Shown piece by piece: positions 6,345 to 39,190 of a stretch of DNA of 64,000 bases. Origin of the DNA: Bryum argenteum (taxonomy: Eukaryota; Streptophyta; Bryopsida; Bryales; Bryaceae); contig CM073322.1 in NCBI GenBank assembly GCA_037043015.1, positions 30,809,864 through 30,873,863 on the forward strand, given 5' to 3'. Made by a program: the position numbers and the translations under genes. How positions within the stretch are numbered: position 1 is the stretch's first letter; each line of letters begins with the position of its first letter. The notes under the pieces were generated by a model that was given only the letters and a program-made list of their open reading frames with translations, made no database searches and was not told the origin of the DNA.

Positions 6345-6347
6345 TAA

Positions 6348-10640: not shown

Positions 10641-10641
10641 A

Positions 10642-10808
10642 GGGCATGGTTGTCACATTGGACAGTTTACTATTCATTACATTGGATCAAATGTTTGGAT
10701 GACTTTATATCTGGGCCTTGTGATCATGTCAATTTAAGGGTGATAAATGGAACTTGACCAATGTGTTCAATATGATGAATTGTGACATTTCTAATGTGAC
10801 AACCATGC
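10642..10808. mobile_element. TA-flanked MITE, 167 bp (Stowaway/mariner-like)
   Basis: Terminal inverted repeats are GGGCATGGTTGTCACATT at the left and GCATGGTTGTCACATT (reverse complement of the right end), about 16-17 bp with a 1-bp length difference. TA flanks both ends (10640-10641 and 10809-10810). The small size, lack of a frame and TA duplication fit the mariner-type MITE class. The TIR itself is not the canonical CTCCCTCCGTCC Stowaway end. Confidence 0.65.
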
Positions 10809-13439: not shown

Positions 13440-14260
13440 AATATAGAAAGTGCATGGAATCACAAGACATTTGTTGTAACATGTGCAGTAAGTCTTACTC
13501 TCTTGCAAGTGCAACTGTCTTTTCTAAAGATGGGTAGTGGTTAGTACTCTCAAGGGATGTAATAGTTGAGGCCGACAATTAGTCACTGACAAGGTTGTTT
13601 GAGATGCAAGTTTTTTCATATGTGTCTATTAAATACTTGAGCACTAATCCACACATTGGATCAAAGGACATTTTTTGAAACATGTAGAGTAACTCTTACT
13701 CTCTTACAAGTGCAAGTCTCTTTCCTAGGTAAGTACTGAGCAAAGATGTAATAGTTGCGGCCCACAGTCTGAAGATATTCTTCGAGATTCAAGTTTTTTC
13801 TAAACGTCCATTGAGTACTTGAGCATTGATGCACGGCTAGAATCAAAAGACATTTGTTGTAACATGTTTAGTAAGTTATACTTTCTTGCAAGTTCAAGTG
13901 TCTTTTCTAAATATGGGTATTGGTGAGTACTCTTCAGGATGTAATAGTTGAGGCCCACCATGATGAGGTTGTTTGAGATTGAAGTTTTTTCATATGTCTC
14001 TATTAAGTACTTGGGCACATCTGCATGAATGGAATCAAAATGAAAAGAGTTCGATGTAACATGTGGAGTATCTCTTACTCTCTTGCTAGAGCTGGTGTCT
14101 TCTTTAATTATGAGTACTCGTAAGTACTGAGCAGAGACATAAAAGGTCAGCTGCAAAGTGCATGAGGTTGTTTGAGATTCAAGTTTTTTTATATGTGTCT
14201 ACTCAAAACTTAAGCACTCATGCACGCATGGAATCACATGACATTTTTTGGAACATGTAG
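13440..14260 (+). repeat. ~195-bp tandem repeat array, left part (about four units)
   Basis: Units recur at about 13466, 13668, 13849, 14041 and 14236 with spacing of 180-200 bp. Each contains GACATTTGTTGTAACATGT, then AGTAACTCTTACTCTCTTG, TACTGAGCA, GATGTAATAGTTGAGGCCC, GAGGTTGTTTGAGATTCAAG and TACTTGAGCACTGATGCA. The units are diverged, so this is an old array. It stops at 14260 in mid-unit and resumes in phase at 38137. The intervening 23.9 kb is an insertion. Confidence 0.9.
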
Positions 14261-14997
14261 AAACACGCAATTAAGCAATTATGCACTTTGCCAAGTGCAC
14301 TCAATGGCATGTCAAAACAACAACATTTTCCTCCAAAATGAAAAAAAACAACAAAAATTCCACACAAAAAAAAAAATTTAAATGTGGAGGCACTAAACTT
14401 AAACTAATGAGAAATAGTATTTTTTTAATAACAAATTTGTTGCTAAATCATGTTTTATTGCTTTGTAAATACTACCAAATTATTATATTCAAATATTGCC
14501 AACATCTATTTTATTATTTTGTGTACCATATAATTTTTTGGAATACAAATCCCAATGGATCAATATGAAGGACAACATCACGTCTTGGAGTGCAAAAATT
14601 GAAATTTAAAGAATTTCAAAGATTCAATTTTGTCCTTGAACTTCCTATAGTGTTTCTTTTTAGATTCAATGCAATTTTGATTACAAACTTCTACGTTGTA
14701 CATTGCTATATGACATTTATATACTATTTTTGGCATTTATACAACAAACATACTTTATAAGAGATAAAAGGCCAACATGTGCTATTCAACGAGAAAATAT
14801 GTAGCATCTCGCTCTATATTATATGAAAATCCATACATAAAATTCATAAACGTACTTTAGAAACTGATAGTAAATACTTTAATATAACATGCATAATACT
14901 ATAACCAAACATCTCATACTTTACTCAAACATATCAATCAAACCTAACATGCCACCTAAACATCATATTGACTTGCTACTTATAAATCTCTGATGCT

Positions 14998-17900
14998 CTA
15001 ATCATCCTCGTCCATTGTCCTACCAGACGCTTCATAGGCCTCATGTACCATACGATCCATCACCGCTTGGCCGACACACTGGGGATCAATAGAATCTTGA
15101 AAGACCGATGGACGCAGACTCTCGTGACGCGTGAATCGCCCGCCACCGCGGCGAGTGTGTCACTTATGCCATCGGTGTTATAGTAGAAGCCGTCTCTAAA
15201 TGTCATCATTGGTGCGAAGGCCTCGTTGAAAGCTATGGTGTCCGCCGATTCTCAGAGATTGTGGAATGGATGGCACCATTGGTCTCGCTTGAATTGGAGT
15301 ATCTAGAACCACCTCCCAGTATCTCCGATCCTTCCTCAAAGCCATTAGGTTCCACAGACGAATGAAGTCCGTCGTCATATGAGTTATGATCGGCGAGGTA
15401 CATCGTATCTAAATACTTCACGCGGTACTGTCGTGACATTTGCCAATGTGTATGGTCTTTGGAATAGAAGTATCCGCTTCATCTCCAAGCTCGTCCTCGT
15501 CACTACCGCCTTCCTCTCAACCTATGTTCATCGGATCTTCGCCCTCGAAATGCCAACGCTAGTCTTTCCTTGTTGCACTGTCATCTCGGGGATCTGAAAT
15601 TGTCCTTGGAAGTTGACAAACAACTTTGTATACAAGAAGTTTAGCCTTTCTAGGCTATCGTCAATGACAATGATCTCCGATCCACGGAAACCTCCATGAA
15701 GGATTGTCGGAATGGCCGTTGTAATGTTATACGCAACAAACCCCAACCAATTGGCAAATACGCATCCACCAATCTAGAGAGAGCTCGGATGGCGATCGCC
15801 GAGTCTATCACCCTCCGACGGTTGATGTGTCTCACCCATCGACGCGTGAAATACAAGTGGTAGTGGACGGTCCCTTAAACATAATTCTCGGTTGGGAAGT
15901 ATCAACGGGTGTTGCATATAAACAACAACACCTCCAAATGGTTCCACCACTTCTTCAGAATCGACCACCATGCGTAAAAGTTGAGCAAGATACGATCAAC
16001 CGAGTTTGCGCCAAATGCCCAACATCCATGTCGTTGAGTGCCACCGGGAAGTTTGAGCTTCAACAACAACTCGGCATTAAGAACACGGCCGCGGTAATAA
16101 AGAGAATCTCGTTCCATCGTTCAACGCCCGTCATCCACGCCGACAATTGCGCAATAACTTTGGCGAATCGCTTCTTCTTCCTGGGCGACCGTCTCCACGC
16201 TTTCCCCACCACGCCGACAATCAACAACCCATAAGATGATTGTGTCAATCACGGACATCGTGATGAAATAATCCTTCCTTCCAAACGAACCATAAGATGA
16301 TCCGGTGTCGGTCTTGAGCGAGTTGGCCTTCGAACTCAGAATACCCACTTCCACGCGACGGTAGTCGCACCACCTCATCTCGACGATCTTTCCACTTCTC
16401 CACGTGTTTGTTGCAGAATGTCCCGATAGTGAACTCACGGAGGTGGGAATAAGTTCACTTATATGTCCGCCAACTTGCACCTTCTCGTGTAGGTTTAGCC
16501 CATGCGGCTTTTTGTGTCTTTGGCCAAGTCGCTTGCCAAATGCATCAATTCTTTCCTTGCCTTTAAAATACTTCCCGACAGATATGTGGAAGAACTCTTC
16601 CATGGAATTGGGTGGCGACTTTGTTGGACACCATTAACCAACGAAATGATATTAGCGACCGCTTCTTCTCTCGTGATCCGGTCAATCGCACTCGCAATAG
16701 TACGGGTATCCCTGACGCATCCTCGATGGCGTGAAAGTAATATGATTGTCGGCGTCATCACGTCGCCCCCCCCACCTGGCTTAGCCGCACAAGACTTGAC
16801 TAGCCGTAGATAAGCGATCGGGAACCACATTCAGCCGCCTCAACCAATGCATGGTCATTCGCTCACGCTCCCGTACATCCACAAGAGAGGATTCTAGGTT
16901 GTTCTTGTCTCGCAAACGCCTTCCACTTCTTCTCCTCTTCCTCGCTATAAAAGAGATGGCCATCTTCGTAGTCCTTGCACACTGAAGGATAGCTTCAGAA
17001 CACTCGCGCCGGCGATTCCACGCATGAATAACGGGTCAAGTCACGATCCGCTTTCCAACCTCTTGATTGTTATACCTTTGTTGCCCTCAACAAGGTTCTT
17101 CGCACCGCATTAGCCGCACACACTAGAGCTTTAGCCCTGCGTTCATCGTCCCGCACGAACCAAGCTATCGGCTTCCCATAACTCCCAAATCTCGCGTAGC
17201 TTTCTCAAGTCCTCATCCACGGTGGAATATTTTGTCCTATTCCATTCCTTCTTTGTTGACTCGCGGACTTCATTAGGTAAATGCAGATCATCGTATACGA
17301 CAAATGTTGCCTCCCGCATTTCAAAGATGTTAATAAACTCAAAGATGCGAGAGTTTGTGTTGGGCAACCTCTTCCTTCGCAAAATTGCAGCGCCGCAACA
17401 ATGTGTTGTTCATCCACCTGCTCCCAAACGATCCTCTCTCAAGCCAACACAATCGGTAATGTGTTGTACCGTGAATAGACGCTAATCCGTGTGATCAAAT
17501 ATGCGTTGGAACTCTCGTTGAGCTCTTTTCGGGGGAATGCCACCTCTTCTTGCCGAACCACACCATCGCAAGCGTGACATCCACAATGTCTTGACGGACG
17601 AAGAACCAACTTGCTTCACACAAGTCTTGTTCTCCTGGATGTCTCATAAAGTCATAAACCTCTCTAACTCTCTTGCGCAGAGAAGCATCGATGGTTTGTC
17701 AAAGGACTCTCCACTTGGATAATCTTGTCGATCTTCACCTCGAATACAATGTCCCCCATAGCGATCCTTTCGCGATTTCGCTTCAAGAGGTATCGGTGCT
17801 AGGAACTTACTTGACGTTGAGGCCTCCAACGCCATCCTCGGTTCCGACTCAATCCTCTTCGTTCGTCCCGATATTTCGAAACTCGTCCTCCACCGCCGAT

Positions 17901-18806
17901 ACATTCAAATAAGAACTCGGTACATATGTTGATGCTCCATGTTGAGTGGAAACCCTCATGGTTGTAGACCCACTACCCCTACCACGCGCCGATCCTCGTC
18001 CCGATTGACCTCGCACCACTTGTAGCCACATTCGACGATCGTCCACCCGAACCGGACGCTTATGTCGCTCTCTCTCACGTCGCCGCTTTGAGGACGTCCT
18101 CTTCCGGATATAGATGAACACTTCCTACAAAGGCGGCTCAAGAGTCGCGAGACGCTTGACGGACACAGATTGTGCAATCTGCTTGAAGTGGTGTAGTAAT
18201 CCAACTCACCTCCGATAACATAACTACGATGAATTGGATCCGCTCTCTTCCTGCTTCAAACAGTGGACCTTGTGATGTTGCATGTGTTGGATCCGCCTCT
18301 AGTAATGCTTCAGTCTTAATATGGGCATCCATAAGAACCATTGCTCGTGCATCCTCATCCTCCCGTGATAACCCTAGACAATGTGACATATCGCTCTCGC
18401 CTCACGTACGCGTCTGCAGAGCGATATTCAGCCAAAATTTCAGCAAGGTATTGAGAAATTTCACGGACCCAGAACTTGCAAGCAAGGATTCTGGAATGGA
18501 TGCAAGAAGAAGCTGTCTCGACAGAGAAGTCTTCTGCATTGCTTCATCAAAGATCTCCACACACATCACATATATCATGTCAGACGATGGGCGGGTTGTA
18601 ATTGCTTGAATCTCGCCAAAACGCTTGCCTAACGCTGACGTACGGTCCCTTATTTTAAAAGGTTGGTGCGTCATCCACAAATAAGGCTTTGAGGGGTCCT
18701 CTTCTACAATCCACCATCCGTGCTTCTCCCATGTCTTGTCGATTTTGCAGTTGGTTCCGACGTTGCGAGGCATGGCAACCTGATCATCATTGGAACACAA
18801 TATCAT
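14998..18806 (-). pseudogene. Decayed protein-coding block of the giant element, product not recognised
   Basis: This block is markedly more GC-rich and frame-dense than its surroundings, and minus-strand frames replace each other at short intervals, as in a gene broken by many indels or with small introns. A possible start is MPRNVGTNCKIDKTWEKHG near 18771. A readable C-terminus has DSIDPQCVGQAV followed by MVHEAYEASGRTMDEDD and stops at 14998-15000. Other plausible stretches are KDYEDGHLFYSEEEKKWKAF (about 16.95 kb) and AFNEAFAPMMTFRDGFYYN (about 15.2 kb). I found no reverse transcriptase, integrase, PIF or hAT signature. Its position, opposite the DUF7869-type gene and facing outward, suggests a second element-encoded protein. 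Exact exons cannot be drawn by eye. Confidence 0.45.
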
Positions 18807-19912
18807 AATGGTTAATATGGTGTAATTTAGAGTCTATTTGACAATTGTTTTGATTTCTATTCAATAAAATATTGATAACTTATACCAAAATTCACCATCC
18901 GACCACATGGTTCATGTGAATATAGACTAACATAGGCCATTTTGTTTGTTTTGATTCTAATATGACTTCATGTGGAAGATGTTTTATGGTTGACGACTCT
19001 TTAGCCCCGAAAAGCCTAGGCCATTATTCTTCAAGAAACACTTCAAATTTGTCACTATCAAAAAGTGGCTTTAAAATCTAGTTTTAGAGTGAAATTTAAG
19101 ACTTCTAATCCTAGAATCTTAAAATAAACATTGATATAAAGCCACCAAATTTTTTAGGCTACTATGCATCGGAAGGATTAAAATATTATAGCATTTGAAA
19201 TCATAAGAATAATTCATTTGCTTAATTGTATTGAGTGGTCTAGCACACTTTAATTTCACTTGGCTTAAAAAAAATCACTATACAAGGTCTAACTTTTTAA
19301 AATCATGATTGGCATGATCATGCTTGGTTACCTTAAAACCAATTTCTAGACATGGAAAAGGTGTGTAGCATATTCAAAACAAATATGCAAAGGATCGAGA
19401 TTGAAATTATTTGACAAACTTTTATGCCACATTTTATTCTTTTGTGAACTCAACATGCTTTAGAATGAAAATCCAAAATGATTGATAAGAATTTATTTAT
19501 CACATAAATTTTTCGCTAGAAAAAAAAAAAAAAATAAAATGAAGATCTATAGGTTTTATGTAGGAAATAGTGTTTTTTTCTCTCCCTTGACCAAAATGTG
19601 CGAACATGTTTGATCAAGGTTAAATGCTCTTTTTACGGTGAAGACAATTTTAGAAATTTGGAATCGTAAAAGAAGGTAATATTCTTTAGTCTCAAACGAT
19701 CAGTATGTGAAAGATGTTAGTTACGCAATATCTACATTAATATTTTTACTATCATGTGTTGCTAAATGTTTTCATTTTTCTTGTTCTTAAGCAAGTAATT
19801 ATAATGTATGACGGGTATCAATATGGGCGGGTATCCCTCATGGGCGGGTATCAGACGTTTGAAATGGCTTTAATATAGTAAATGGGATGTTTATTGGAGT
19901 TCACTTGGTTGA
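18807..19912. other. AT-rich interior of the giant element, no gene
   Basis: Very AT-rich DNA without frames above about 50 codons. At 19810-19850 the phrase GGGCGGGTATC occurs twice. Confidence 0.4.
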
Positions 19913-20718
19913 TTGTTTCAAGGGTGTGCTTGCGCGCACACCCCTTGCAATCTCTCATAATTTTTTTATTATTTCTATTTTTTAATGATTCTTAAATTTT
20001 TTTAGGGTTTAAGGTTTTAAGATTAGGATTTTGGTGGCTTTGGTGGCGGCTGCATGGCTGCAACAAAGACCACAAAGAGGATGAAGGGAGGAAGACGAAG
20101 ATTTTAACATATCGAGTACAAAGTGGGCCAACTTGAATAGTAGCGTCTGCATAAGAGCGAACAAGAACCCAAAATGCACGCCGCAACAATAGAGCAACAA
20201 TACCAAATGATAGCAATGAGGAATAGCAACAAGATCGCAAGTAGCAAGCATCGATTCGATAGCAACAAAGAAGCGGCGATCTGGTACAATAGCAAAGCGA
20301 TGATTCGGTACTAGAGCAAGGCGGCGATTCTGATGCAAAGAGAGAGTGCGATAAGGAGAATCGGCAAAAAGATTTTTGGTTGCAACAAGTCACGAAACTC
20401 TCCTAGTGCTCTACAGATCGTCCTAGCAGCGTTCTTGAGAAACACGAGCAAGAGCGGAGGAGGAAGAAAAGGCAATAGCAACCTGCAGAAACACGAGCAA
20501 GAGCGGAGGAGGAAGAAACGGCAACAAAGACCTTCAAAAACACGAGCAAGAGCGGAGGAGGAAGAAACGGCAACAACGACCTTCAAAAACACGAGCAAGA
20601 GCGGAGGAGGAAGAAACGGCAAGTGTGCCAGAAGATCAGAAGCGGGGAGGTCAGATGAAAATCAAAAGAGGAGGTGGTAGAGGTGTTCGCCCGGACACCT
20701 CTACCACCTCCTCTTTTG
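19913..20718 (+). repeat. Repeat module bounded by GC-rich palindromes; 48-bp tandem repeats and a perfect 24-bp hairpin
   Basis: The module opens with a GTGTGCTTGCGCGCACAC palindrome (about 19924-19941). It contains about four ~48-bp tandem units (AACACGAGCAAGAGCGGAGG..., about 20438-20625) and closes with a perfect inverted repeat, CAAAAGAGGAGGTGGTAGAG.. at 20663-20686 paired with 20695-20718 around an 8-nt loop. A similar palindrome-flanked organisation recurs inside the nested element at 34.6-36.4 kb. The 115-codon frame through the tandem units is repeat-driven, not a gene. Confidence 0.75.
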
Positions 20719-22119
20719 TTATATTTTTTTTTTAAAAAAATAAAATAAAAAATTATGTCATTTTTAGTTGATGGATGTCTAATCGAAGGTATTTTTATTG
20801 TTGTATTATAGCAATTTTGTTGTATGTTAAGTTTTTTAAAAAACTTTCTATAATTATGAAAACAATTGAATGATTTTAGTAGAAGGCTAATGTAATCTAC
20901 AAGTTATTGTTTCACTAAATTCTTGAAATTTTGTTGTGTGTTGAGAATCATTTTTTTAATTCTTAAAATTCACTGAAAATGAAATTTATTTATTTATTTA
21001 TTCTTTCAAATTCCAAGATGACTCAAAATGTAAGTTACTAGTTGAATAATCTCTAACGCACGAGTGTTTGCATTGCTAAATTCCGGTTTATTTGTTGTAT
21101 GTTTCCAGGTCTATATATTTTACATCTATTGAAGAGCATGTCTAAGAATGGACATGTGGTGTGAACACCACTTGGTTCTAAGCCCTATAAAGCTAACTCA
21201 TTGAGGTGGGAATAATTTAGTTACAATTTGATTTAATATTTTTGTTCTTCTATAAAACTTTGTTCCTACTTGAGTGCAATTGAATCATTGGTTGCAAGTT
21301 TTATTCAACTTTCATTTTTATAATGTAGTAGAAGTTAAAGTTAAAGTTTAAAATTACCATATTTTCCAAACAATAATATATTGCATTCATACAAGAACAC
21401 ATGATAATTCTATCCATCGCTATGAAAATAGATCATACAATGAATATTGCAAATATTATTTTTTCTTGCAAATTTAATTGAACCTATAAGTAACTAAGTA
21501 AGTTGTAACTTTCTATAATCATTGTCATTGCAATAATTATTCCTTTATCCTAAACAATACCACCATCTTTGTGATTTTATGCACGCTCAAAGCATGATGT
21601 AGGATTTATAATGGAAATTGCCATAGGTACAAAGTAATTTGACGCCATTTCATGTTGTCATTGTCTATTTTTATTTCAATCAACGATTTTTAGCAATGTA
21701 TTATGAAACAAAACAATCCAATTCCTAAGGTGTAACATAGTCTTGGACAAGGTATCAAACATGATTATTGTTATTTCCACGTAATCAAAACTTAGCATCG
21801 TATTATTTTATCCAACACATGTCTGTAGAGGTAGATAAACCGTTAATTTATATATAAATAAAGTACACAAGATAATCCTAAGTAATTTAACAACTTTAAA
21901 CAATCTTAACAATTATATATAATATCATTACGAACTTAGTAACCAACATTAACAATCATGTTTGGAAGCAAAAATTTATGTCCTTGAACATATGTTCGTT
22001 TGAATGAATGATATTTTCTATTGCTTACACACATATTTTCACATGTTTGCAATGTATAGGTTCCTATTAGTTCAACAACGACAATGGACAGCTCCAATTT
22101 CCAAATCCCTTTAGTACAT
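20719..22119. other. AT-rich interior of the giant element, no gene
   Basis: No frame, paired end or tandem structure of note in about 1.4 kb of AT-rich DNA. Confidence 0.4.
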
Positions 22120-22638
22120 CAAAACCACGGTTGTCAAATCGGTCGACATTCGGGGTAAACCTAGTCCGCGGACGTAGTCCGGACTCTGTCGACCGGGACC
22201 ATAGTCCGGACCATGGTCCGGGGGGGTAAATGGGAGTTACCCCGGTCCCTGGTAACTTCTGGGGCCGTTGGATCATCCACCTGGTCACATCTCAGCCGTC
22301 AAAATTTGATCCCGGCCAGGCGACCGGCTCCGGCCGCTCCGTCGGATCGGACGGCGGCGACGACCGCAATAGATCATGGCCGTCGGATCAATTCCAGCGC
22401 TATGGGCCGTTGGATCGGGCCGCCGTCCCGCATGCCCGACGGCCGGACGATCGGGGTCGGGTCGGTCGCCATGGCGGCGGTCGGGTCGGTCGGTGGCCGT
22501 CGCCATGGCGGTCGGGTCGGGTGGCCGTCGCCATGGCGGTCCAGAGTCGGGTCTGGCCGTCGCCATGGCGGTCCGGGGGTCGGACCGGCGATCGGCAAAG
22601 GCCGTCGGATCGGTCGGTGGTCGATCGGATACTGCAGT
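22120..22638 (+). repeat. GC-rich terminal repeat (left) of the fold-back stack, with GCCATGGCGG tandem units
   Basis: The sequence becomes extremely GC-rich and repeats GTGGCCGTCGCCATGGCGG-like units at about 33-40 bp spacing (22440-22580). Its inner 150 bp match the reverse complement of 32053-32205 (shared: CGGTCCGGGG, GTCGGACCGGCG, GGCCGTCGGATCGGTCGG), so the two are diverged inverted partners about 9.5 kb apart. The overlapping 120-210-codon frames here are by-products of the repeat. Confidence 0.7.
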
Positions 22639-23570
22639 GGCTCTTGAAACTTCAAATGCCCATAACTTCGTCAAAAATTATCCGAATTGCTTATTTAAGA
22701 TGCTTTTTGACATCTGCAAAACATGTAGATGCCAAAAAACATCTTAAACGCACAATTTGGATTAGTTTTGACAAAGTTATAGGCCTTCAAAGGCCGTCAA
22801 ACCTTCAAAGGTCTATAACTTCGTCAAAACGTATCCAAATTGGACGTTTAAGATGTTTTTTGGCATGAGGAGGTCGTGGGTTCCATTCCCCATGCCGGCG
22901 AGGTGCTCACCACTATAGTCCACCCAACTATTGTGGGGGGTCCTTAGACCTTGTTGTATGGGTACCTCAAAGTCCTTTGGGAGGATACTATGTCAAGTAT
23001 CCTCAAGGCACTAGTAACTAGGCTAGAAACTAGCGTAGTTATAGTGTCCACCCTCGAGAGGGGGAAGTAGTATTGTTCCAATTTCCCCTTGTCCGGTGGC
23101 CATCGGGATATTAGCATTACGAACGGACACTTCATTCACGCCGGCCCCTTAGAAAGGGATCGGAGTTTCTATCTATCTATCTATCTGTTTTTTGGCATGT
23201 ACATGTTCTGTAGATGTCAAAAAACATCTTAAATGTTCGATTCGGATAAGTTTTGACTAGGTTAGGGGCATTTCAAGTTTCTGCAGGCAGTCACATCGGC
23301 CGCCGACCGATTTGCCGACCGATCCAACGACCGCCGACCGATCCAACGACCGCCGACCGATCCTACGGCCCACACCCGGTCGGCCTCTAGCACTCCCCTC
23401 TCTCCCTCTCCTCTCTCTCACTCACGAGCCCTTCCTCTCCTCTTCTTCCTCTCCTTCAACGCATTTATGAACTTTCTATTTTGGGGATCAGACATTAAAT
23501 TCTTTGCCTAATTCAAGGCATGGACCCACGTGCCATATTCTTTGAGGAATGTTAAGAAGATTTCATTGTA
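22639..23570 (+). repeat. Fold-back module A (carries a SINE insertion)
   Basis: The module consists of a quasi-palindromic core (starts CTTCAAATGCCCATAACTTC, ends GGGGCATTTCAAG), then GCCGACCGAT-type repeats and a CT-rich stretch (CTCCCTCTCCTCTCTC). The whole matches the reverse complement of module B (28470-29060) up to TTTCATTGTA. The A/B pair therefore forms inverted repeats of roughly 600 bp, not counting the SINE, around a ~4.9-kb interior that holds the trihelix gene. Confidence 0.85.
22868..23186 (+). mobile_element. tRNA-derived SINE, 319 bp, 13-bp TSD GTTTTTTGGCATG
   Basis: The insert is flanked by a perfect 13-bp duplication, GTTTTTTGGCATG (22855-22867 and 23187-23199). Module C (31952-31985) has the same site with one copy and no insert. 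A polymerase III B-box-like sequence, GGTTCCATTCC, lies at 22879-22889. The A box is lost, so the copy is 5'-truncated. The 3' tail is a (TCTA)n run. Related copies are at 6905-7173 and 63201-63553. There is no coding capacity. Confidence 0.92.
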
Positions 23571-24245
23571 AGGGCGCACTCACATGTGAGACCCGACCCC
23601 ATAATTTCACTGTAGCCACCCATAATTTTTGAAGGGTCACTTTTCAGGGTGAACATTACGGGTCACTTCCATGTTCATTCATGATGTTATAAATTAGTGT
23701 GTTCTTTTGTGGCTTATTCCCTGACAATGTAAAGTTAGCATGGGCCCATTCACTACTTCCCATGTTCCCATAGCCCCAAAATACATTTCTTTCGTCTTCT
23801 TCTTTCTAGATCTAGATTCAACTTTTTTCTTTCCCTACAACCTCTCCACTCAATAAATGAGTATGGACGAGTGACATTAACTCCTTTTTGGAGCTTTGTT
23901 GGAGCCAATATTGTTGGAGCATTATTTGTTGGAGCATTATTTAGCCTTGCTTGGAAGATTAACCAAGTGTAAGTATTTGATCTCAGATCTTGCCTTCTTA
24001 TCTTTTGCTTGGGATCAAGCTTGTCTGGAAGATTATTCAAGCATGAGTAGATTGTTAATTTTCTCATGACACTTTTGCTGAGGGAGTACACAAATCATTC
24101 CCATTTCATTATATATAAGGAGGTGTCCTGCCGAGTAGCTTCAAAAATGGCATTTAGGAACCAAACTTGTGGTAGTAGTCCTCACAGACATGGCCGGCTC
24201 TCATCAACTTGGCCGACACAGGACATGGCCGGCTTCATGCATTCA

Positions 24246-24780
24246 ACCAATGCTAATGGATTTCTAATCTTTAATGATTGTCAATTGGTTTTTTATTTCA
24301 ACTTGCATGGTAATGGCACTCGGTTTGAGTATTGAAAATTTACAGTGAACTTAAAGTTTGGTAGTATGCAAAGGCAAAGTAAATAAAAGTCTATTATGCA
24401 GTGGAGTTAATGATTGGTAAGATGTGTGCATGGGCAAAGTAAATAAAAGTCAAGAACTATGATTTATTTGGTTAACCCCTATGTGAGGATTACATTGTGA
24501 TATTTTTCAATTAGATCATCAGTTATGCCTCAAATTTGAATGCTTCATTATTTTATCCAATGCTAATGGATTCCTAATCTTTCATGATTCTCAATTGGAT
24601 TTTGATTTCATTTTGCATGGTAATGGCAATTCGTTTAAAAATAAGAAATTTGTAGTGAAGTTAATGATTGGTAAGATGTGTGCATGGGCAAAGTAAATAA
24701 AAGTCAAGAACTATGATTTATTTGGTTAACCCCTATGTGAGGATTAGATTGTGATATTTTTCAATTAGATTCATTTGTGT
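24246..24780 (+). repeat. Direct duplication of ~250-310 bp upstream of the trihelix gene
   Basis: The block CCAATGCTAATGGATT..., TTGCATGGTAATGGCA, GTTAATGATTGGTAAGATG, GGGCAAAGTAAATAAAAGTC, GGTTAACCCCTATGTGAGG occurs twice: first about 24246-24530 (with a small internal duplication) and again about 24558-24775. It lies in the presumed promoter or 5' leader of the downstream gene. The second copies are nearly identical in the last 120 bp, which points to a recent event. Confidence 0.85.
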
Positions 24781-24905
24781 AATTGTATTATAGAAGGTGA
24801 TCTAATTGTATTATAGAAGGTGAGATCACTAAAGTTTGTTATAATTGATGTGCACCATCTAATTAGTCAATTTGTTTCTTGAAGTAGATCACAATTTATT
24901 TCACC

Positions 24906-26102
24906 ATGTCTTCTTTCAATCCAAGGTGGCTCAATAACCTCACCAATTCCGGAAGCTCCGACCTTCCATCTTCTTCATCTCAACCAGCTTTTGATTTAAA
25001 TATGGATTCTCAAATGGACGATGAAGCAGAAATTTATGGTAGCAATGAGGTGGGAGAAACACAAGTTGCATATGAAATTTGTCATATGATGGAGCAAACA
25101 CGGGTATATAAGAAGAGCATGTGGAGCTTGTCGGAGGTTTTGATACTACTCGATGCAAGAAAACATGATTGGCTCAAATTTGGTCCCGGGTTTGTAGGCT
25201 CCAAAGCACTTCATATGCCCCATCATCAACGTTGGGTTGCAATTGCGGATAAATTGTGGGCACAAGGGGTTGAACGGTCTCCTCAACAATGCAATGATAA
25301 GTGGGAGGGAATACGGTCCGATTGGCAGAAAATATGGGACTATGAGAAAAACATTCCAAGTGGAAGGAAAAGTTTTTGGGAGATGGATTCTGGCGAAAAA
25401 AAAGCTTTGAGGGTTAAGACAAATATGCAAAGGGAGGTTTTTGACAACGTCGCATCTTGGTTGCCTTCATCATCGCGTTCCACTGAACCAGTGGAGATTA
25501 TAGATACCTCAAACCATGGTATGCAATATATAATGTTTTTTTTTTTTATAACAAGTTTTAAGTTAATAAGATTCAGTAAACTTATATAGAAGCTATAAAG
25601 GTTTTAGAATTTTTGAAGCTTAACTTCTTATATTGTATTTGAATTAAGTTGGGATTCAGTATTTATCTTGTTAAAGGCCTAAAAAGTGATGTGTTTTTGT
25701 TTGGAATGTCTATAAGATGATCACTTGGAAGACCAAGCCGGCGATGGTGCCACTAGGACATCTAATCCTTCAAGTACTGGTAAGCGCCGTCGATCCTTGC
25801 CAAACAGTGACTCATTGGCCGTAGCTATGGAAACAAGTAGAAAGCGAACTATTCAAGCCATGGCGGATGGGGAAGAAAGGGCAGATAAGCGCCATAAGGA
25901 AGTTTTGGCATTTGAGGTTAAAAAACATGAAGACAATATGATTTTACATCGTGAGGCATTGGATATGCAAATCAAATCTCACGAGAAAATGCATGAGATT
26001 GAAAAGGAAAAAATGGCGGCCACCAAAGAAGCGAATGAGGGTTTTATCCATGCTTTACTATCTATTAGTAAAGCAATGGCGGGGATCCGCGAGAACCTAT
26101 AG
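24906..26102 (+). CDS. Trihelix (Myb/SANT-like) DNA-binding protein, two exons, 332 aa
   Basis: Exon 1 is 24906-25518 and exon 2 is 25717-26102, joined by a GT-AG intron (CCATG|GTATGC ... ATAAG|ATGATC) that keeps frame across a split Asp codon. Residues ~60-165 carry a trihelix-type domain with spaced Trp residues (KKSMWSLSEV, RWVAIADKLW, QQCNDKWEGI, WQKIWDYEK) and the extension FWEMDSGEKK...REVFDNVASWLP, as in ASR3-like trihelix factors. The C-terminal 90 residues are Lys/Glu/His-rich and helical, probably a coiled coil (HEKMHEIEKEKMAATKE). No stop or frameshift interrupts it, unlike the other coding DNA in the giant element. It could be a captured host gene or an element-encoded DNA-binding partner of a transposase. 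Confidence 0.82.
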
Positions 26103-28469
26103 AATGTTCATCATTACATTTATATATGTTATAGTAGTTTTCTTAGTTGGTATAATAATAAGCTAGGATGCTTATGTTTTGCGGTTAAGCATTTTGCTCG
26201 TTACTACCAGGGTTTCTAGTTTACAATGTTCTTTTTTAAAATATGGAACTTGACTAATTGTTATGTCATTATTCCTGATATTGTTAAGTTTGAGATTACT
26301 CAATACAATCGTTACGAAATATTTTGGTACAGTTTTTTCATAGAAAATGGAACTCATTATTTTTTTAACACTGATTTGGGTTTTGTTGCAATTTGTTCTA
26401 TCTATCACGCAAAATTCTAGACATTTGTATTGATCTTGTCATCATCACTTTAACCATCACATAAAAATATCTAGCATACATTGATAAACTTTGAATTACT
26501 TCAAAGTGTAAGAAGTTCCATGTAAGTTGCATTCAACCATAGTATATAGAGAAATGATTAAGAAAGTTTATATTTTATAAATTAATGAGAATGCTTTATT
26601 TGAATAATCATATGGCCTTGGAGATATATGAAAGGTTGAAATTTGACATGTGACCTTAAGATCCTACGGTTGAGTCTTCTATATAATGCTTGAATTGAGG
26701 CTTTTTAGGCCTCAAGTAGAAGAATATTATTGTGGAGAATATAGGCAATTTTGCATCAAGGATCTTTAGGAATTAAAGTCTCTCTATTTGAACTAAGACA
26801 TAAACTAGACTCAAGCCACTTTTGCTAATTTCTCAATAATTCACATACTCTAATAATGAAGATCAATAAGATGTTACTTACTATTTAACGCATATTATAG
26901 TTTTACAAGTGTAAAAAGAAAATATAAAGATCTTTACATTTTGTGTATTTAAAATTACCTTTTCTTTCCTTTTGTCCAAAGAAGGAATTTTAGGAACATG
27001 CCTCATATTCAAATTCAACCGGGGGGGCATTTAGTATTTGAGTGTAAGTTTTTAAAGTCCTTTGACAAAAATGCTTAATATTATAGGGGTCAAACAAGAT
27101 GAATAGAAAGTATCTAATTGAGGCTAAGAAGAGGCTTCTACAAAGAATATTCTTATTCAATACAAATTTGATCGCCATATCAATCAATTGAAGTTAATAT
27201 TATCCAATTGCGTATTAAAATAACATATGAGTCTACAACTATAGGAACAAGTATACTAATATTCCAATGCTATATATTATAAAACTAGTAGTTTTTTGAA
27301 ATTTTATTTGGCTTCGGTTAAAAAAATTATTATTTTATTATCATGGAATAATAGAAAATAGAAAAAATTCTTATTTGCTTTGTATAAGTCATTTAAAAAG
27401 TATTCTAATTATAATGTGAAGAGAAATCATACTAGAGAAGATAAAAAATTATTATGTACGCAATATAAATAGAAAACCTTACACTTAGATAAAACTCAAG
27501 TTTAATCATAATCCAAGAATGCTAACAAAAATATATTATAAAAAAATTATAGGGTACATGATGTCTGTTAATAAAGTAATGTAGGATTAGAATTTTATAT
27601 GAAAGAATATTACAAGGTGCAATATATTGAACGTTTAAAATATAATCCGTACGTTGTACTGTCAAATATTTCCAATATACATGTAAATTATGTCAAAATG
27701 GAGTTTCTTGTAATAACAAGAATTGATAAAATAAAAACTCAAAAATAGATCATTTTATACATAAACAAAAAATAACATAGGCCATAAATGTGGAAAAGAA
27801 TCATTCTTGTGTGGAACTTATGAACATTGACCAAAAACGATAAATGCATAGTCTAAGTTTACACATTGCCACTATGTAACTTGTTATATATATAGGAAAG
27901 TCTTATAGAAATGTAATCTTTGAATCCTATTAGGCACTCGAAAAACAAATATTAGCATATACTAGTTTATACACATGTCTATTGAATTTGGGTTATACGA
28001 ATTTACATTGGAAGTTTTATTTTATATATCTATTTATTTCACACAATTGTATGAATGCTATTAGCCTTCCAATTTAGTGCATGCTTAAATTTATTCCATA
28101 CGTTTCATAGAATTTACTTCAAGTTGCTACTGAAAGGTGAAGTAACATAATTTTGGAATACTACAATTTTTCTTCACCAATACATGTTCACTCCAACCCT
28201 TAAAAAAAGAATGGCCCATTACGAGGCAGACAAAAGATGGTTAAATTTGTTAAAAAATAAAGACCACATTCTTTTTCATTATCATATGTCAATATGAAGA
28301 AATTGCAAATTCTATGAAAACATGTGGAAATTTTACTCGTTGAGCATGTCGAATGGTTCATGAATAGTGAAAACTAAAATTCATATGAACAAAGTGGACC
28401 TATACATAAAAAGTTCTATTTTTCATATCCAAGCCCATAAGATTATTCAAATAAAACATTCTCATAGAT
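26103..28469. other. AT-rich interior between modules A and B, no gene
   Basis: Very AT-rich, with frames of at most about 80 codons and none recognisable. At 26640-26720 there is a copy of the dispersed GATCCTACGGTTGA-type repeat. Confidence 0.4.
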
Positions 28470-29501
28470 TACAATGAAATCTTCTTGACATTCCCCAAAG
28501 AATATGGCACGTGGGTCCATGCCTTGAATTAGGCTGAGAATATGATGTCAGGTCCTCGAAATAGAAAGTTCTTAAATACATTGAAGAGGAGGAATACATT
28601 GAAGAAGAGGAGAGGAAGGGCTCGTGAGTGAGAGAGGGGAGAGGGAGAGAGGGGAGTGCTAGAGGCCGACCGGGTGTGGGCCTTAGGATCGGTCGGCGGT
28701 CGTTGGATCGGTCTGCAAATCGGTCGGCGGCCGATGTGACTGCCTGCAGAAACTTGAAATGCCCCTAACTTAGTCAAAACTTATCCGAATCGAACATTTA
28801 AGATGTTTTCTGACATCTACAGAACATGTACATGCCAAAAAACATCTTAAACGTCCAATTTGGATACGTTTTGACGAAGTTATAGACCTTTGAAGGTTTG
28901 ACGGCCTTTGAAGGCCTATAACTTTGTCAAAACTAATCCAAATTGTGCATTTAAGATGTTTTTTGGCATCTACATGTTTTGCAGATGTCAAAAAGCATCT
29001 TAAATAAGCAATTCGGATAATTTTTGACGAAGTTATGGGCATTTGAAGTTTGAAGAGCCAATGCATGCAATCAGATCGGCCTCCGACCGATGTGCCGACC
29101 GATGTGCCGACCGATTCAACGGCCGGCGACCGATTCGACGGCCACACCCGGTCGGCCCACCCAACCTTCTTCTTTCAATACCCCTTCTCTTCCTAACTTC
29201 CCTTCCTCCCTCCCCCTCCCAAATGCTTGACTTTCGTGACAAATGAAAGGATCGTTGAGACTTACTGTTTTAGGACGTACAATCTAACATATATAGGCCT
29301 AATTGGGAAATTTCTGATACTTGTATTAATAGTCAAAAGAATGTCCGAAAGATTCTCTTGCAAGAAGGACCATATCCCTAAAGGAGAAGCTCTAGAGTGA
29401 CCTCCAAGACGGCCATATCTCAAATCCGCAAACAATTTTTTTTTTGAATTTGATTTTGGGAACTCCAACCGTAGGATCTTGTTCATAACGGTTGAATTAG
29501 T
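28470..29501 (-). repeat. Fold-back module B (inverted to A; right part inverted to C)
   Basis: Bases 28470-29060 are the reverse complement of module A. Bases 28750-29501 are the nearly identical reverse complement of 31303-32052 (module C). Over 125 codons of the shared segment the two translations are identical, and over another 69 they differ at one residue, so the B/C pair is much younger than A/B. The module has CG-rich CGACCGAT repeats on both sides of the quasi-palindromic core. Confidence 0.9.
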
Positions 29502-31302
29502 CTACCCATCAATTTTTATTAGATTTCACTGTATGGATCTTGAGATATATTGAGTCAAAGTTTCAGTTTTTGTAAAAAACATCATATCTTTTTCAAGCAA
29601 ATCGACCCGATTCGGGTCAAACTCTCTTTTAGGGGTTAAGGGGTATACTTATGGGTATACATATAAACTATTGAACTTAATAGTTTCATTTTTGAGTTTT
29701 TAATTTTAGTTTTTGGAGAGTGGTGCGAAATTAAGTTGTTAGAGTGAAACAAAGGAATGAAATTTGGGGGAAGGGGGCGGTAGATGTAAATTACAAAGGA
29801 AAGAAAAAACATTAATATTTAATAGGAAGATACTTGCAAATTCAAAAAATTAAATAAATTGGGAATTTAAGAAGATAATTAAGGCAAGAAGACAAACTTT
29901 TGAAATTAAAGTTTTAAGTAAAATAGCATACAAATTTACATTATATAGGAGGGTTACATGTTAAATAAAATTGAAAGGCAATAAATCAAAATTAGAAGTT
30001 GAGGTTGCCGGACAAGATTTAAAATACTAGCGTTGGTAAATAGAAAGTAAAACACAAGGTAGGGATAGAGTAGGAATTAAACAAATCTAATTTGCTATCT
30101 TGGCTGGATTTTCTCCTCTTCTTCCTCATCTATGTCAAGAAGGACCTGACACAATTCTATTTAATTTTTTGTAGGTTGTGACTAATGTGACTAATGCCCT
30201 TTTGTACCTTATTCACACAAGTCGTAATTACTAAATCACCTCCATCTCTCATACGTAGACCACATAGTATTTTGGGTTTTTTATAGATTATAGACTACGT
30301 AAACCACGTTCCACTAAATGTTTGTGCCTATTGGACAATTTGACAATTTATTACAATTATTAGATTGCATTAACTTCCAACTTTCTCAAAAGTAAAATAG
30401 AATGTATATTATCCACCTATGTATGTTAAAGTATCCATTTAGTACAAGATCTTGTTATTATTCACGGTTTAAATTAAGATTTTAAATGCTTCCATTTAAT
30501 TATTGAATTTTTTTACTTTAAGTTGATATGTGAAATTTAGTTATCAATCAAGCTTTAGAAATATCAATTTAAATAAAATAAGACCAAGATTAAGAAATCT
30601 TGGGGGGTGATATGTTCATTAAAATTGAAAAATAATAAATTAAAATTGAGAGTAAGAGATTGTGAACAAGATTTAAAATACGAGGGATAGTAGATAGATA
30701 TTTGAATATACAAGTTGGTGGTATCGTAGGATTCATATAATACTAATTTTCTATCCATTTAGTACCATTTAAAGCTTATTAATGCTTTTGATAATGTTTT
30801 CAGTTAACATATGAGAGTTGGGAGCATTTAACCCCTAAAAGCCCGAGGGGTTTGGATAAAAACTTAGATGTGTTATGAAATGTGAGTTCCCTAACCCTTA
30901 TGAAGTTTTTCTCTAAGAACAATATGAAGACTTTAATGTTTAAATTAGATCGATACGGTTGAATTTCTTAAAATAGTAAATATTCATTTTGTAATGAATT
31001 AAAAAGGTAAAACTTTAAAAATCAATAGAAATGACACTTTCTATTATTAGTACTTGAAATTTGATATGATTGGCTAATATTATATGTTATATGATAAAAT
31101 AGAAAAAGGCTACTAATAACTCAAGAAGAATACTAATAGTTTCCCCTAATAGTAAGTTTTCTAACACTAAGAAAACTTTGCCACGTTTGTGTTTGAAGGC
31201 TTGGTGTGAACAATCTATGATTCCAAATGAGGTTACTCAAATTGGATGTGGTTCCTAACTCACCAAAATTCTAGAAAGTAAAAATTCAACCGTTGGACAT
31301 AA
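29502..31302. other. 1.8-kb spacer between inverted arms B and C
   Basis: AT-rich DNA with no frame above 64 codons. It includes an AGGGGTTAAGG box at about 29630 and a TTTAACCCCTAAAAGCCC box at about 30827. In an inverted-repeat transcript this segment would form the loop. Confidence 0.5.
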
Positions 31303-32052
31303 ACTAATTCAACCGTTATGAACAAGATCCTACGGTTGGATTTCCCAAAATCAAATTCAAAAAAATTTGTTCGCAGATTTGAGATATGGCCGTCTTGGAG
31401 GTCACTCTAGAGCTTCTCCTTTAGGGATATGATCCTTCTTGCAAGAGAATCTTTCGGACATTCTTTTGACTATTAATACAAGTATCAGAAATTTCCCAAT
31501 TAGGCCTATATATGTTAGATTGTACGTCCTAAAACAGTAAGTCTCAACGATCCTTTCATTTGTCACGAAAGTCAAGCATTTGGGAGGGGGAGGGAGGAAG
31601 GGAAGTTAGGAAGAGAAGGGGTGTTGAAAGAAGAAGGTTGGGTGGGCCGACCGGGTGTGGCCGTCGAATCGGTCGCCGGCCGTTGAATCGGTCGGCACAT
31701 CGGTCGGCACATCGGTCGGAGGCCGATCTGATTGCATGCATTGGCTCTTCAAACTTCAAATGCCCATAACTTCGTCAAAAATTATCCGAATTGCTTATTT
31801 AAGATGCTTTTTGACATCTGCAAAACATGTAGATGCCAAAAAACATCTTAAATGCACAATTTGGATTAGTTTTGACAAAGTTATAGGCCTTCAAAGGCCG
31901 TCAAACCTTCAAAGGTCTATAACTTCGTCAAAACGTATCCAAATTGGACGTTTAAGATGTTTTTTGGCATGTACATGTTCTGTAGATGTCAGAAAACATC
32001 TTAAATGTTCGATTCGGATAAGTTTTGACTAAGTTAGGGGCATTTCAAGTTT
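31303..32052 (+). repeat. Fold-back module C (right arm of the B/C hairpin)
   Basis: Reverse-complement partner of 28750-29501, starting ACTAATTCAACCGTTATG and ending GGCATTTCAAGTTT. It contains the quasi-palindromic core in the same orientation as module A and without the SINE, so it gives the empty site for that insertion. Beyond 32052 the partner relation changes from B to the GC-rich left terminal repeat at 22.1-22.6 kb. Confidence 0.9.
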
Positions 32053-32580
32053 AAAGAGCCTCAGCGGCGATCGACCGACCGACCGATCCGACGGCCTTGC
32101 CGACCGCCGGTCCGACCCCGACAACCACGGCGACCGCCAGGCCCGACCCCGGACCGCCACGGCGACGGCCACCGATCCCCGGACCGCCACAGCGACGGGC
32201 GGCCGACCTCGCCCGATCGCCAAAAGCGGTCGGCGGCCGACCTCGACGGTCGTCACCCCGTCGGCCGGGCGGCCGACCTCGCCCTGTCCGCACACCGGTC
32301 GGCCTAGGGAACGCCGGTCCCGCCACCGGTCGGCCGGTCCAAGCGTCGGACGGGGTGCGGTCGGCGAACAGGAAACGGTCGGACGGGTGCGGTCGGTAGT
32401 CAAAGGATCGGACGAAGTGCGGTCGGCACCGGCCGGACCGTAATTTACCCTAAGTAAATTATAAAAACCCGTTATGTCACCGACAGTCCTAGGGGCCGAG
32501 GACGACGGACCATGGTCGACCGGCCGCCTCTGTCCGGCCGTCTCCGACAACCCCGATCAAAACACCCAATCTGAAGCGAT
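32053..32580 (-). repeat. GC-rich terminal repeat (right) of the fold-back stack
   Basis: An extremely GC-rich block of GGTCGG/GCCGACC units. Its inner ~150 bp are the inverted counterpart of 22490-22638. GC-richness drops abruptly after CAATCTGAAGCGATG at about 32580, where the decayed transposase-like coding DNA begins. Long overlapping frames here (up to 173 codons) reflect composition, not a gene. Confidence 0.7.
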
Positions 32581-34613
32581 GTCATTAATCCGAACGGTTC
32601 AATGGGAGCGCGATTAATACGAGCGACTCGTCTGGCGGACCGGAGATGGTATTACTCGCGCATTTCATCTCAATTGGAAAGGACATTTGAATTGTTATCG
32701 AGAAAGAAGAGAAGTTGTCGGCAGAACTAGGAGTATACATTTGAAATCGGCGCGCAATCGCATGGATCGAAGTTATTCCCGTCCGAGGTGGCGACGCATC
32801 ACTTGGGTAGACGATGCATTGCATTGACCGGAGAGATTGTGGGAGAACGTCTTGGAATGTGTGTTGGATTGATCATCCGTTGGCACAAGTCTTATCTACG
32901 TCACGATAGCCGTGGAACCCACCATTCAAAATGGCGAGGACGTATTGAATGGGTCTCAAACACCACCTGCATTTTAGAGGTTGACACAAGAATTTGATTT
33001 CCATGACAACTTCAACACACCCTGGATCCACCGATAGGTCTCGGCGCAGATAGTATAGCTTCAAACCCCGTAGATGAAACTCTCCATTTTCTCAAAGTCT
33101 CTTTTCCAACATCCGAGATTTGCCCCATGTAGATGGGCTTATTCAATGTCGAGCGGCCCGACGTCCATATTCTATGCAAAAATAGAAGAAGCGAGAGATT
33201 CCGGGAGACATCTTCTAGAGAAGGTATATCTCTGAAGGTATCTCTTCCAAGCGTGCAAAGGGCAATAGGGCGAGGAGGATGCAAACAAAATTGTTTGAGA
33301 GACATTCAAGAACGGTATCTATTGGACATGCGTTATAATGCGTGGGCTTCTACTTATGCAATTCAAGTCTTGGATGAGACAAATCTTTCTTTCTTTTTAT
33401 ACACGGACGGAACGTTTCCAACGAGATAAATTTGTCACAAAGTTAGATGGCAAACAAGTTTGTAATGCTTGTTATGCTCTCGGCATTGGATATTCACAAA
33501 GACGGTTTAAACAATCAAGAAGGAGTGTTTAATATATGGAAGAGTGGCGGCGATTCACGTGTAATGACCTTTCAAACCCGCTCGGAGAGCACTAGAATGT
33601 CGGCGCGGAGGCCTCATTTAAATCATTTGTGGGCGGAAGGCTGGTTGTCCTCAACCTCATCGTTCAATTCTTCGTAAGGATGATGACGAAGTGGTGCCTC
33701 TTATTCTCCCGCCCACGAATACTCGGAAGTCCGATATATTCAATTACGTGAACGAGGAGGTGAAGAGAGTTTGTAACGGAGAAACCATTTCAATTAGCTC
33801 GTTCCGGGAGGATGTGGCGCATCGGTATCCTCATGTCCGTGTACCTCCATTCTCGAGGTTTTCAAAGTGTTATCACTCTTTGGGAATATAAATGTGCCAT
33901 GGAGGAACTACGAATGCGATCTTCGGATCAAAATAAAAGAGTTGTTTATGATGCATCGCGTATTCGGATGGAGGAACGGAGAGATTATTGGATATTTAAG
34001 AGGTCGTCTATATCACCGGTTTGTTACATGTGCATCATTGTTGATGGCGTGGATCAAAACACTACCATGGTACCGAGAATCGTCAAACCGTGAAGAACAT
34101 CGAGTATCGGTTTGTGAAAGACCCATTTGTGTGGAGTCCTCGTGCGTGGGATTGGTTTATCTTTGCGATGTGTGGTTCGGCGCACCACAAAAAATGATAG
34201 CAACCAGGTGGTGAAAGACATTGTTGCGCGTGATAGGAGATGTGAAGAGGAGAAAACGCTTTTTGCCTCCAACATTACGTATCCAAGCGTATAACTGCAC
34301 ACGAGAGAATAAAAACATTTACATGTTTGCTCTATGTGTTTCATTGGTGGGATTGGGTTTTTTTCAAGAGGTGGAGCTCTCTTTCCTTATAGTGGGCCAT
34401 ACACACGAAGATATTGACCAACGCTTTAGTTGTATATCTAATGTGTTGAAGAGGTCGGACATCGACTCATTGAAGGAAATGCTTAGTCTAATAGAACAAG
34501 GTACATCCATAACAGAGGCGTTTGTTAGCGCCAGACTCTTAGAAAATGTGTGGGACTGGAAGTCCTTCATAACCCCTCACTTACTGACGGGTGGGGACTC
34601 TTTGGTTGGCATA

Positions 34614-36451
<1,838 letters not shown>

Positions 36452-38136
36452 ATAACCTTTCCGCACCACATGCGATTCTATATGGACAATCGAGAGGGGG
36501 TCGGTAAGGTTCGAGTACAACACAAACATTATAGCAAGGATAAATGGGAACCTGAGTCAGGGACAAAGACGTTGCAATCGCTACCAAATAAAGAAGAACG
36601 ACCATCGTTTGCAAAGGTGTTTGCAGCTGATGAAAGGGAGTTGAAGGCATTGGATGACTTTATTGCATACAAAGAAAGGTGCATTCAAAGATTCCAACAT
36701 CCGGAAAAAAATGGTGAAGCTAAAAGAGAGGCAGAACATTTGAAACTATACCTAGCCGAATTCCCAAGCAAAGATCATAGCAACGAGCATAGTTCTTCAC
36801 AGCTTTGGCCTTCAGAGGTATTAGAGACATCACCTATTGTAGATGCATCAATAGATGTTATTGACGATCGAAATGAATCAAACCACGAGATTACTATTGT
36901 GGACCAAATAGTGGCGATGCTTCCAAATTCTGAGGTTAGAGGATACTTTGGTCATCGAAGAGAGAGGCCACCTAACCAAGCAGTGCATAGGGCACAAAGA
37001 ACGGCTCGCAGTCACATCTTTGATGGAACCGAAGAAAGAGCGGTATCAGAAGGTACTGACGATCCTTTTCCCCAATTTGATCCTCAATCCGATATCCGTT
37101 CGACAATTTGTAGCCCTCGGTGTTGATCGTGCGAGAAATACACGGGGTGTTCCATTTTATTTAGGGAAGGTGATTGAAGACGGAAAAGGCGAGAATAAAA
37201 TCAAGATGAAAGTTTGTTGGTATTGGCCAATCATTCGAGGGGAGTTGGTGACGGACCGAGTTCCTCTTTACAACGGTATGCAAACTGTTTGGATTCATTG
37301 TGGGAGCCATCCGGGAGAATCACGATTGGATAGAGAAAGAGGCATGTATTTTTTTCATGGGCGGACGAACCGAAAGAATCATGTCCGGTCATAGTCGGGG
37401 AGAAACCGCAATGTCTTTGGAGTCACGGGTTCCAAGCAACATTTGCATTATCCAATCTGCGAAGGCCCACATATTAGAATATATCGCAATGCAAACCCAA
37501 GCTATCGACGATGACCGCTTGCAAGCCGCATTAGATATTAGTATGTAGTCCATGTGTTTTGTGTACACATGGTGTTTCTAAGTGTATATACGTACTAGAT
37601 AGTACAAGATCGCAAGGATTATTTTCGGGACGTGTTGTTGCGATGAACATATGGGTTGAATTTAGTTGTATTATCGATTATATACATAACTTGGTATACA
37701 TTTAGAATCATGTATTTAAATACTTTTCTAACACATATATACAAAGTACAATATGAAGTATATTTTTATTAAATGTCCATTGGAACAATTTGGTGCCTAC
37801 TTTTATTAACAGTTTGGTGCTCGCGTCATTTTGCTCACCAAAAATATATTAACTATAATCTACACAATTTGTAGCATATACTAAGCATTTCAAATATCCC
37901 TGGACAAAAATATTTGTATTATTCACATGGATTTATACCAAAAATATGTTCACAATGCCATTAGAAGTATTTTTATATTACCACTTCTGACAATACGCAA
38001 CATTCTTTGCAAAACACCTTTTTTTCCAGAAAAAATCAAGTTTAAAAATTAAAATTTCCATTTTTGCAAGAATGGCCATCGTAGTACCCAAGTGCACTTT
38101 TAAATAGCCGGGTGCATAATTGCTTAATTGCGCGTT

Positions 38137-39190
38137 TAGAGTAACTCTTACTCTCTTGCAAGTACATGTCTCTTTTCTACATATGAGTACATGTAAATAC
38201 TGAGCAGGTATCTAATAGTTCAAGCCTACAATGACTCACTAATAAATGAGGTTTGAGATTCAAGCTTTTTTATATGTGTCTAGTGAGTATTTGAGCACTG
38301 ATGCAGGCATGGAGTTAAAGGACATTTGATGTAATATGTAGAGTAACTCTCACGCTCTTGCAAGTGCAAGTCTCTTTTCTAAATATAAGTACTGGTAAGT
38401 AGTGAGCAAGGATGTAATAGTTCAAGCCCACGGTCACTCACTAATGAGGTTGTTTGAAATTTAAGTTTTCTAGTATGTATCTGTCGAGTACTTGAGTACT
38501 GATCCACGCATGGAATCAAAGGACATTTGTTGTAACATGTGGAATAACTCTTACTCTCTTGCTAGTGCAGGTCTCTTTTTTACATATGAGGACATAAAAC
38601 TACAACAGGGATGTATTAGTTCAAGCCCACAGTCACTCACTAATGAGGTTGTTTGAGATTCAAGTTTTTTTTACATGTCTCTATTGAGTACTTGAGCACT
38701 ATCCACGCACAGAATGAAAGGACATTTGTTGTAACATGTGGAAGAACTCATACTCTCTTGGAAGTGCAGGTCTCTTTTCTACATATGACGTCATGTAAGT
38801 ACTGAGCACGGATGTAATAGTTGAAGCCCACGGTCACTCACTAACAAGGTTGTTTGTGATTTTAGTTTTTTATACGTTTCTAGTAAGTATTTGAGCACTG
38901 ATGCACGTATGGATTCAAAGGACATTTGTTGTAACTCTTACGCTCTTGCAATTGCTAGTCTCCTTTCTAAATATGAGTACTGATAAGTACTGCGCAAGGA
39001 TGTAAGAGTTGAGGCCCACGGTCACTCAGTGATTAGGTTGTTTGAGATTGAAGTTTTCTTGAATGTGTCTATTGAGTACTTAAGCATTGATGCACACATA
39101 GAATCAAAGAATGTTTGTTGTATTGGTAAGTATATGAGTATTGGTAAGTATTGAGGAGGGATGTAATAGTTGAAGCATGAATCTTGAGGA
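38137..39190 (+). repeat. ~195-bp tandem repeat array, right part (about five units)
   Basis: Continuation of the 13.44-14.26 kb array: GACATTTGTTGTAACATGT landmarks fall at about 38317, 38518, 38717, 38917 and 39107. The first unit begins in mid-unit directly after the giant element, in the phase needed to complete the last unit before it. The array fades out by about 39190. Confidence 0.9.

Follow-up and report, generated by a model that had tools for sequence, protein, structure and literature searches.

A tandem array in the genome of Bryum argenteum (assembly GCA_037043015.1, contig CM073322.1) is interrupted at positions 14262-38136 of the window, by which we mean the whole 64,000-nucleotide stretch that was analysed (30,809,864 to 30,873,863 of the contig). 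The interruption is an element of 23,875 bp with inverted ends, and the locus raises the question of what kind of DNA entered the array and which protein moved it. We conclude, with a probability of roughly 0.8, that the element is an inactivated large terminal-inverted-repeat DNA transposon of the cut-and-paste type that carries two outward-directed genes, one of which contains the domain of unknown function DUF7869 and likely encodes the transposase. The ends, the target duplications, the repetition within the genome, the gene plan and the low dN/dS ratios on which this reading draws are direct observations.

Structure of the inserted element

Both the inverted ends and the tandem array are present where the original prediction had placed them (Table 1). 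The terminal inverted repeats of the window copy extend for 25 bp with one mismatch. When the flanks are joined and one TAGA is kept, the result, ACATGTAGAGTAACTC, is an array unit, and the joined flanks (604 bp) match the neighbouring array at 77% across the junction over 607 aligned columns, gaps included. Joining the flanks thus restores the array, which bears out the proposal that a DNA transposon sits in this array and that its empty site can be read. The ends are indeed flanked by a duplication, and this duplication is the 4-bp TAGA in place of the proposed 3-bp TAG, because the first A of AAACACG had been counted to the tip.

Table 1. Features of the element and of the array that received it, in window coordinates
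Feature	Position	Strand	Details
Left target site duplication TAGA	14258..14261	.	matches 38137-38140
Left terminal inverted repeat AACACGCAATTAAGCAATTATGCAC	14262..14286	+	13-mer core has 168+171 genome matches
Transposon, left part	14262..22125	+	91% to L021/L022 positions 1-7805 (blastn)
Decayed partner gene, broken frames	15199..18833	-	homologue, compared by eye, of the 1,411-aa open frame in relative L059/L060; limits approximate, from frames of at least 70 aa
Later insertion, 10,430 bp	22126..32555	.	tips CACGGTTGTC / CGGGGTTGTC; 8-bp duplication ATCAAAAC
Transposon resumed, most of decayed DUF7869 gene	32556..34614	+	93% to L021/L022 positions 7798-9875
DUF7869 domain fragment (PF25273)	34218..34586	+	171-aa frame 34215-34730, E 4.2e-38
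Nested relative, 1,837 bp	34615..36451	+	tips AACACACAATTAAGC / AACACGCAATTAAGC; duplication ATAA
Transposon right end, C-terminal part of decayed DUF7869 gene	36452..38136	+	95% to L021/L022 positions 9872-11560
Right terminal inverted repeat AACGCGCAATTAAGCAATTATGCAC (sequence of the - strand)	38112..38136	-	one mismatch vs left
Right target site duplication TAGA	38137..38140	.	matches 14258-14261
Tandem array, ~200-bp unit, receiving element	38142..39122	.	related units left of 14258

Comparison by blastn of the window with an 11,560-bp relative (L021/L022) returned three long matching blocks. Because a 10.43-kb insertion and a 1.84-kb nested relative lie between these blocks, the native element measures approximately 11.6 kb, and the earlier description of a transposon of 23.9 kb does not hold, as the remainder consists of later insertions. 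Two such insertions are demonstrated by target duplications, ATCAAAAC at 22118-22125 and 32556-32563 for the first and ATAA at 34611-34614 and 36452-36455 for the nested relative; the count of at least five further insertions was not reproduced. The first insert (22126-32555) contains several internal inverted repeats, some of them long (e.g., 28750-29443 against 31359-32052, 99%), as well as a Myb/SANT-like frame at 24888-25589, and its left 19-mer has a single occurrence in the genome.

Neither the window copy nor the 11.5-kb copies examined have intact reading frames, and the DUF7869 gene of the window copy features a tyrosine in place of the second invariant aspartate (RIQAYNC). The broken frames and the tyrosine suggest that the window copy is very probably inactive. 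Within the flanks of the window, a Dof zinc-finger frame and a DHHC-type frame, both resembling plant genes, were recognised by eye.

Copies across the genome

The search for other copies with the same termini, which the original prediction had proposed, was positive and revealed many copies in the genome. Within its 259 Mb, the 13-mer core CAATTAAGCAATT has 168 forward and 171 reverse matches (reversed control, 2 and 0), and the 27-mer tip AACACNCAATTAAGCAATTNTGCACTT gave 66+76 matches versus 0+0 for the reversed pattern. Among 100 places listed, 34 neighbouring tip pairs face inward at most 30 kb apart and 3 adjacent pairs within that distance are oriented otherwise. Among the matches listed, the inward pairs span 3.4-23.9 kb, the upper limit being set by the window copy, and 11 of the 34 fall at 11.3-11.9 kb. 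Full-size members measure approximately 10.7-17.5 kb and start with AACAC or a one-base variant and end with the complement.

Target duplications were evaluated for 35 end pairs, which comprise the window copy, 14 pairs with internal sequence and 20 pairs defined by their ends only. An exact 4-bp duplication flanks 30 of the 35, as compared with a mean of 0.36 matches per 35 when right flanks were reassigned at random; of the others, four show one mismatch, including a pair whose ends are 48.6 kb apart, and in L028 a tip is degraded. The duplications are AT-rich, the flanks differ between copies, and TTAA is found in 0 of the 30 exact cases. By raw counts over both strands, the 30 sites favour CAC-WWWW-GTG, with C, A and C in the three outer positions 29, 34 and 33 times out of 60.

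These results bear directly on whether transposition occurred, in place of which a chance inverted repeat, an assembly artefact or a segmental duplication could be invoked. The paired ends carry individual 4-bp duplications in differing flanks, the reversed 27-mer gave 0 control matches, and the nested copy carries a 4-bp duplication of its own. The duplications of the 35 pairs and the 27-mer control refute such explanations, in favour of which nothing was found and which we regard as having next to no chance of being correct.

Two divergent genes between the ends

Full-size elements contain two genes on opposite strands that diverge outward from the middle. The right-hand gene corresponds to Pfam DUF7869 (PF25273), and the other encodes a large partner protein. 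Such a plan is seen in the element C2:13784863-13799725 (14,863 bp, duplication TAAT), where a 1,411-aa frame lies opposite in strand to a 974-aa DUF7869 frame, and in C5:21304871-21317821 (12.95 kb), where the matched parts of both genes are free of stops.

To quantify the association, 65 partner matches were reduced to 34 loci by removing fragments of the same locus and were compared with 98 of the 151 DUF7869 rows. Among the matches listed, DUF7869 lies within 30 kb at 18 of the 34 partner loci and is not listed within that distance at the other 16; chance would yield approximately 0.02 per partner locus. The arrangement is opposite-strand and divergent at all 18. We also compared 28 chosen end pairs longer than 8 kb with rows selected for their position, 16 of DUF7869 and 6 of the partner; the tie between gene and ends therefore covers only part of the DUF7869 copies. 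Among the matches listed, a gene lies inside 14 of the 28 and none inside the remaining 14. Twelve DUF7869 matches are located 1.5-1.85 kb from one end and directed outward, and a partner match is present in four pairs, two of which have both genes.

The DUF7869 gene

Across the genome, 151 DUF7869 matches were scored from 1,806 first-look candidates, with stop-free frames of up to 1,125 aa. An alignment of proteins from 15 of 30 fetched loci revealed four aspartates that are invariant across all 15 (D420, D502, D542 and D544), with invariant aspartates in IIVDGMDQNTT, RIQADNC.RENKN and VGHTHEDIDQ, and members that extend far enough toward the N-terminus feature cysteine pairs (CxxxCL, CNACY and variants). 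A Pfam scan detected DUF7869 in 15/15 proteins; the sole other match was DUF2199 in one of them (E 0.0091), and no known transposase model was returned at E up to 0.01. A search of PDB sequences yielded no match, pattern searches of viral and prokaryotic collections yielded 12 and 18 matches with none confirmed as relatives, and DUF7869 was found in 0 of 14 control genomes. The dN/dS ratio is 0.18-0.30 in four of seven pairs, the other three being saturated. Other DUF7869 matches form a second group, which aligns only to approximately positions 54-192 of the profile, has open frames of up to 1,017 aa and includes many members on C1.

The partner gene

For the partner, 65 matches were scored genome-wide from 613 first-look candidates. 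Two stop-free frames, of 1,402 and 1,405 aa, are 76% and 89% identical, respectively, whereas those of 1,341-1,428 aa contain 1-3 stops within the match and show 32-49% identity. The motifs WEPVDGQH and DCRRG are invariant, with conservation down to 32% identity. The dN/dS ratio is 0.26-0.38 in three of four pairs and saturated in one, values that are rough because dS in the three pairs is 1.5-3.3.

Profile and sequence searches returned no credible relative of this protein in Pfam (best E 0.6, and 0.15 for one piece), no match in NCBIfam (three pieces) and, in PDB sequences, one match at E 1.6 and four at E 1.3-2.5, none of them credible. When 50,697 phage records were searched in translation with the partner protein, one irrelevant match (E 5) was returned. 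We also considered a methylase or ParB reading, which had been suggested by eye from WEPVDGQH, DCRRG and a later motif, and found no profile support for it: hhalign probabilities were below 1% for both ParB and beta-class methylases, with one-template E values of 0.08-0.64 against small references (seven methylases and one ParB).

Proposed mechanism and assignment

In our model, the DUF7869 protein would act as the transposase by way of an RNase H-like core, with three aspartates located in IIVDGMDQ, RIQADNC and HTHEDIDQ; the core and the catalytic role are both predicted from the conserved aspartates. The transposase would cut at the AACAC ends and insert through a 4-bp staggered cut, and the partner protein may bind the ends, the transposase or the target, like accessory proteins of other plant transposons. 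The window copy would have inserted into the array, after which it degenerated and was interrupted by the two later insertions, in either order. The roles of the two proteins could also be exchanged, such that the partner is the transposase and DUF7869 an accessory or passenger. Such an exchange would accord with the deep conservation of the partner, including its invariant motifs, and with its lack of a credible match to a known family. However, the three-aspartate pattern sits in DUF7869, which also has more first-look candidates (1,806 versus 613, numbers that are not strictly comparable because the queries were a profile for DUF7869 and a single protein for the partner), and no partner was seen among frames of at least 150 aa in the short span of 4.6 kb read upstream at loci L061/L062. 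We consider the exchange of roles unlikely and favour DUF7869 as the putative transposase.

Target duplications measure 3 bp in CACTA (En/Spm) and PIF/Harbinger elements, 9 bp in MULE and MuDR elements, 8 bp in hAT and 4 bp in Ginger, and CACTA elements end in CACTA. The AACAC ends, the 4-bp duplication and the lack of a CACTA model in 15 proteins (E up to 0.01) rule out CACTA, and the 4-bp duplication together with the lack of a transposase model in the same 15 proteins rules out MULE, hAT, PIF/Harbinger and Tc1/mariner, the last of which duplicates TA (PMC10741241). Kolobok and piggyBac likewise feature 4-bp duplications and are specific for TTAA (PMC9587614), which rules them out given 0/30 here. 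Ginger, named for a Gypsy-integrase-related protein (PMC10741241), resembles the present elements in inverted ends and a 4-bp duplication and is ruled out by the lack of an integrase model in three DUF7869 proteins at E up to 1 or in 15 at E up to 0.01. In plan, the elements resemble En/Spm-CACTA, MuDR and PIF/Harbinger, which are described as carrying additional coding sequences (PMC9033089), in that a putative transposase is combined with further coding sequence, deletion derivatives and inverted ends.

Membership of the Sola superfamily, with DUF7869 as a Sola-type DDD transposase, has in our estimation a little under an even chance of being correct. Sola elements range over moss, ferns, animals and protists and are seldom reported in flowering plants. 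Two reviews put the number of inverted-repeat superfamilies in plants at only six or seven (PMC9033089, PMC10741241); one lists Sola for Physcomitrella and Capsicum (PMC9033089), and the other describes it as DDD-type, with 4-bp duplications and lengths of 2 to over 15 kb, and as not common in flowering plants (PMC10741241). Further sources report AT-rich 4-bp duplications for Sola2 (PMC3627910) and Sola in ferns (PMC6786969). By these descriptions, the likeness extends to AT-rich 4-bp duplications (exact in 30/35 pairs here), terminal inverted repeats and size, and the three invariant aspartates, predicted as catalytic in DUF7869, would correspond to a DDD-type transposase. The present family, which has many copies, differs in its two large opposite-strand genes and AACAC/GTGTT termini, and the descriptions consulted mention no partner gene of such size. 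A text search of a limited set of papers found no mention of DUF7869, so that nothing there links it to Sola, and searches for Sola or other superfamily elements returned no matching element. Likewise, four tip strings retrieved no related element, with one string occurring in an unrelated context.

We put forward only tentatively the further possibility of an undescribed plant superfamily, defined by a DUF7869 transposase, an orphan partner of approximately 1,400 residues, AACAC ends and 4-bp duplications at CAC-WWWW-GTG, that is abundant here with some long open frames. If true, such a superfamily would give DUF7869 a function, and our model offers a testable one for this domain. An abundant lineage with long open genes outside the usual superfamilies may also mean that annotation misfiles or misses many repeats. 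The partner protein, which has no recognised relative and is conserved down to 32% identity, raises a second question.

Related families and derivatives

A distant family is represented by C1:21117185-21128262, which has a partner that is 32% identical, the equal gene plan and the duplication TATA. Its ends, AACACCGAATTCGTTAATTTTGCAC and AACACAGAATTAGGAATTTTTGCAC, are similar to the tips of the window's family and were located from a list of AACAC-like motifs whose flanks were compared by eye, which is weaker than the 35-pair statistics. A third DUF7869 family (L061/L062) has one 1,099-aa frame in each copy and is 94.6% identical over 3.7 kb, and the common sequence stops at ...CAATAYTGTGTT, with no left end found.

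In copies L024 and L027, internal deletions share their breakpoints (1434/4898 and 6849/10351 in coordinates of the relative); L011/L012 has both deletions too and reaches 11.5 kb only through other internal sequence. These common breakpoints suggest that deletion derivatives multiplied, as would be expected of a transposase acting in trans.

Several further arrangements were observed. At two places, a copy of the window's family has another DUF7869 gene 6-7 kb away (C3:4152501-4163996 with C3:4170051, and C3:1469681-1481345 with C3:1488607), possibly in shared landing regions; the first (L030) is just 41% identical to L051, and the second is L031. Facing ends at C3:5095931 and C3:5144528, which are 48.6 kb apart with a one-mismatch duplication (GTTT/GTTA), may belong to a single element enlarged by insertions or be paired by chance. 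Finally, L023, L026 and L028 form a separate 3.4-3.8-kb set whose ends are similar (AACATG and variants) and which has only short pieces in common with the 11.5-kb family.
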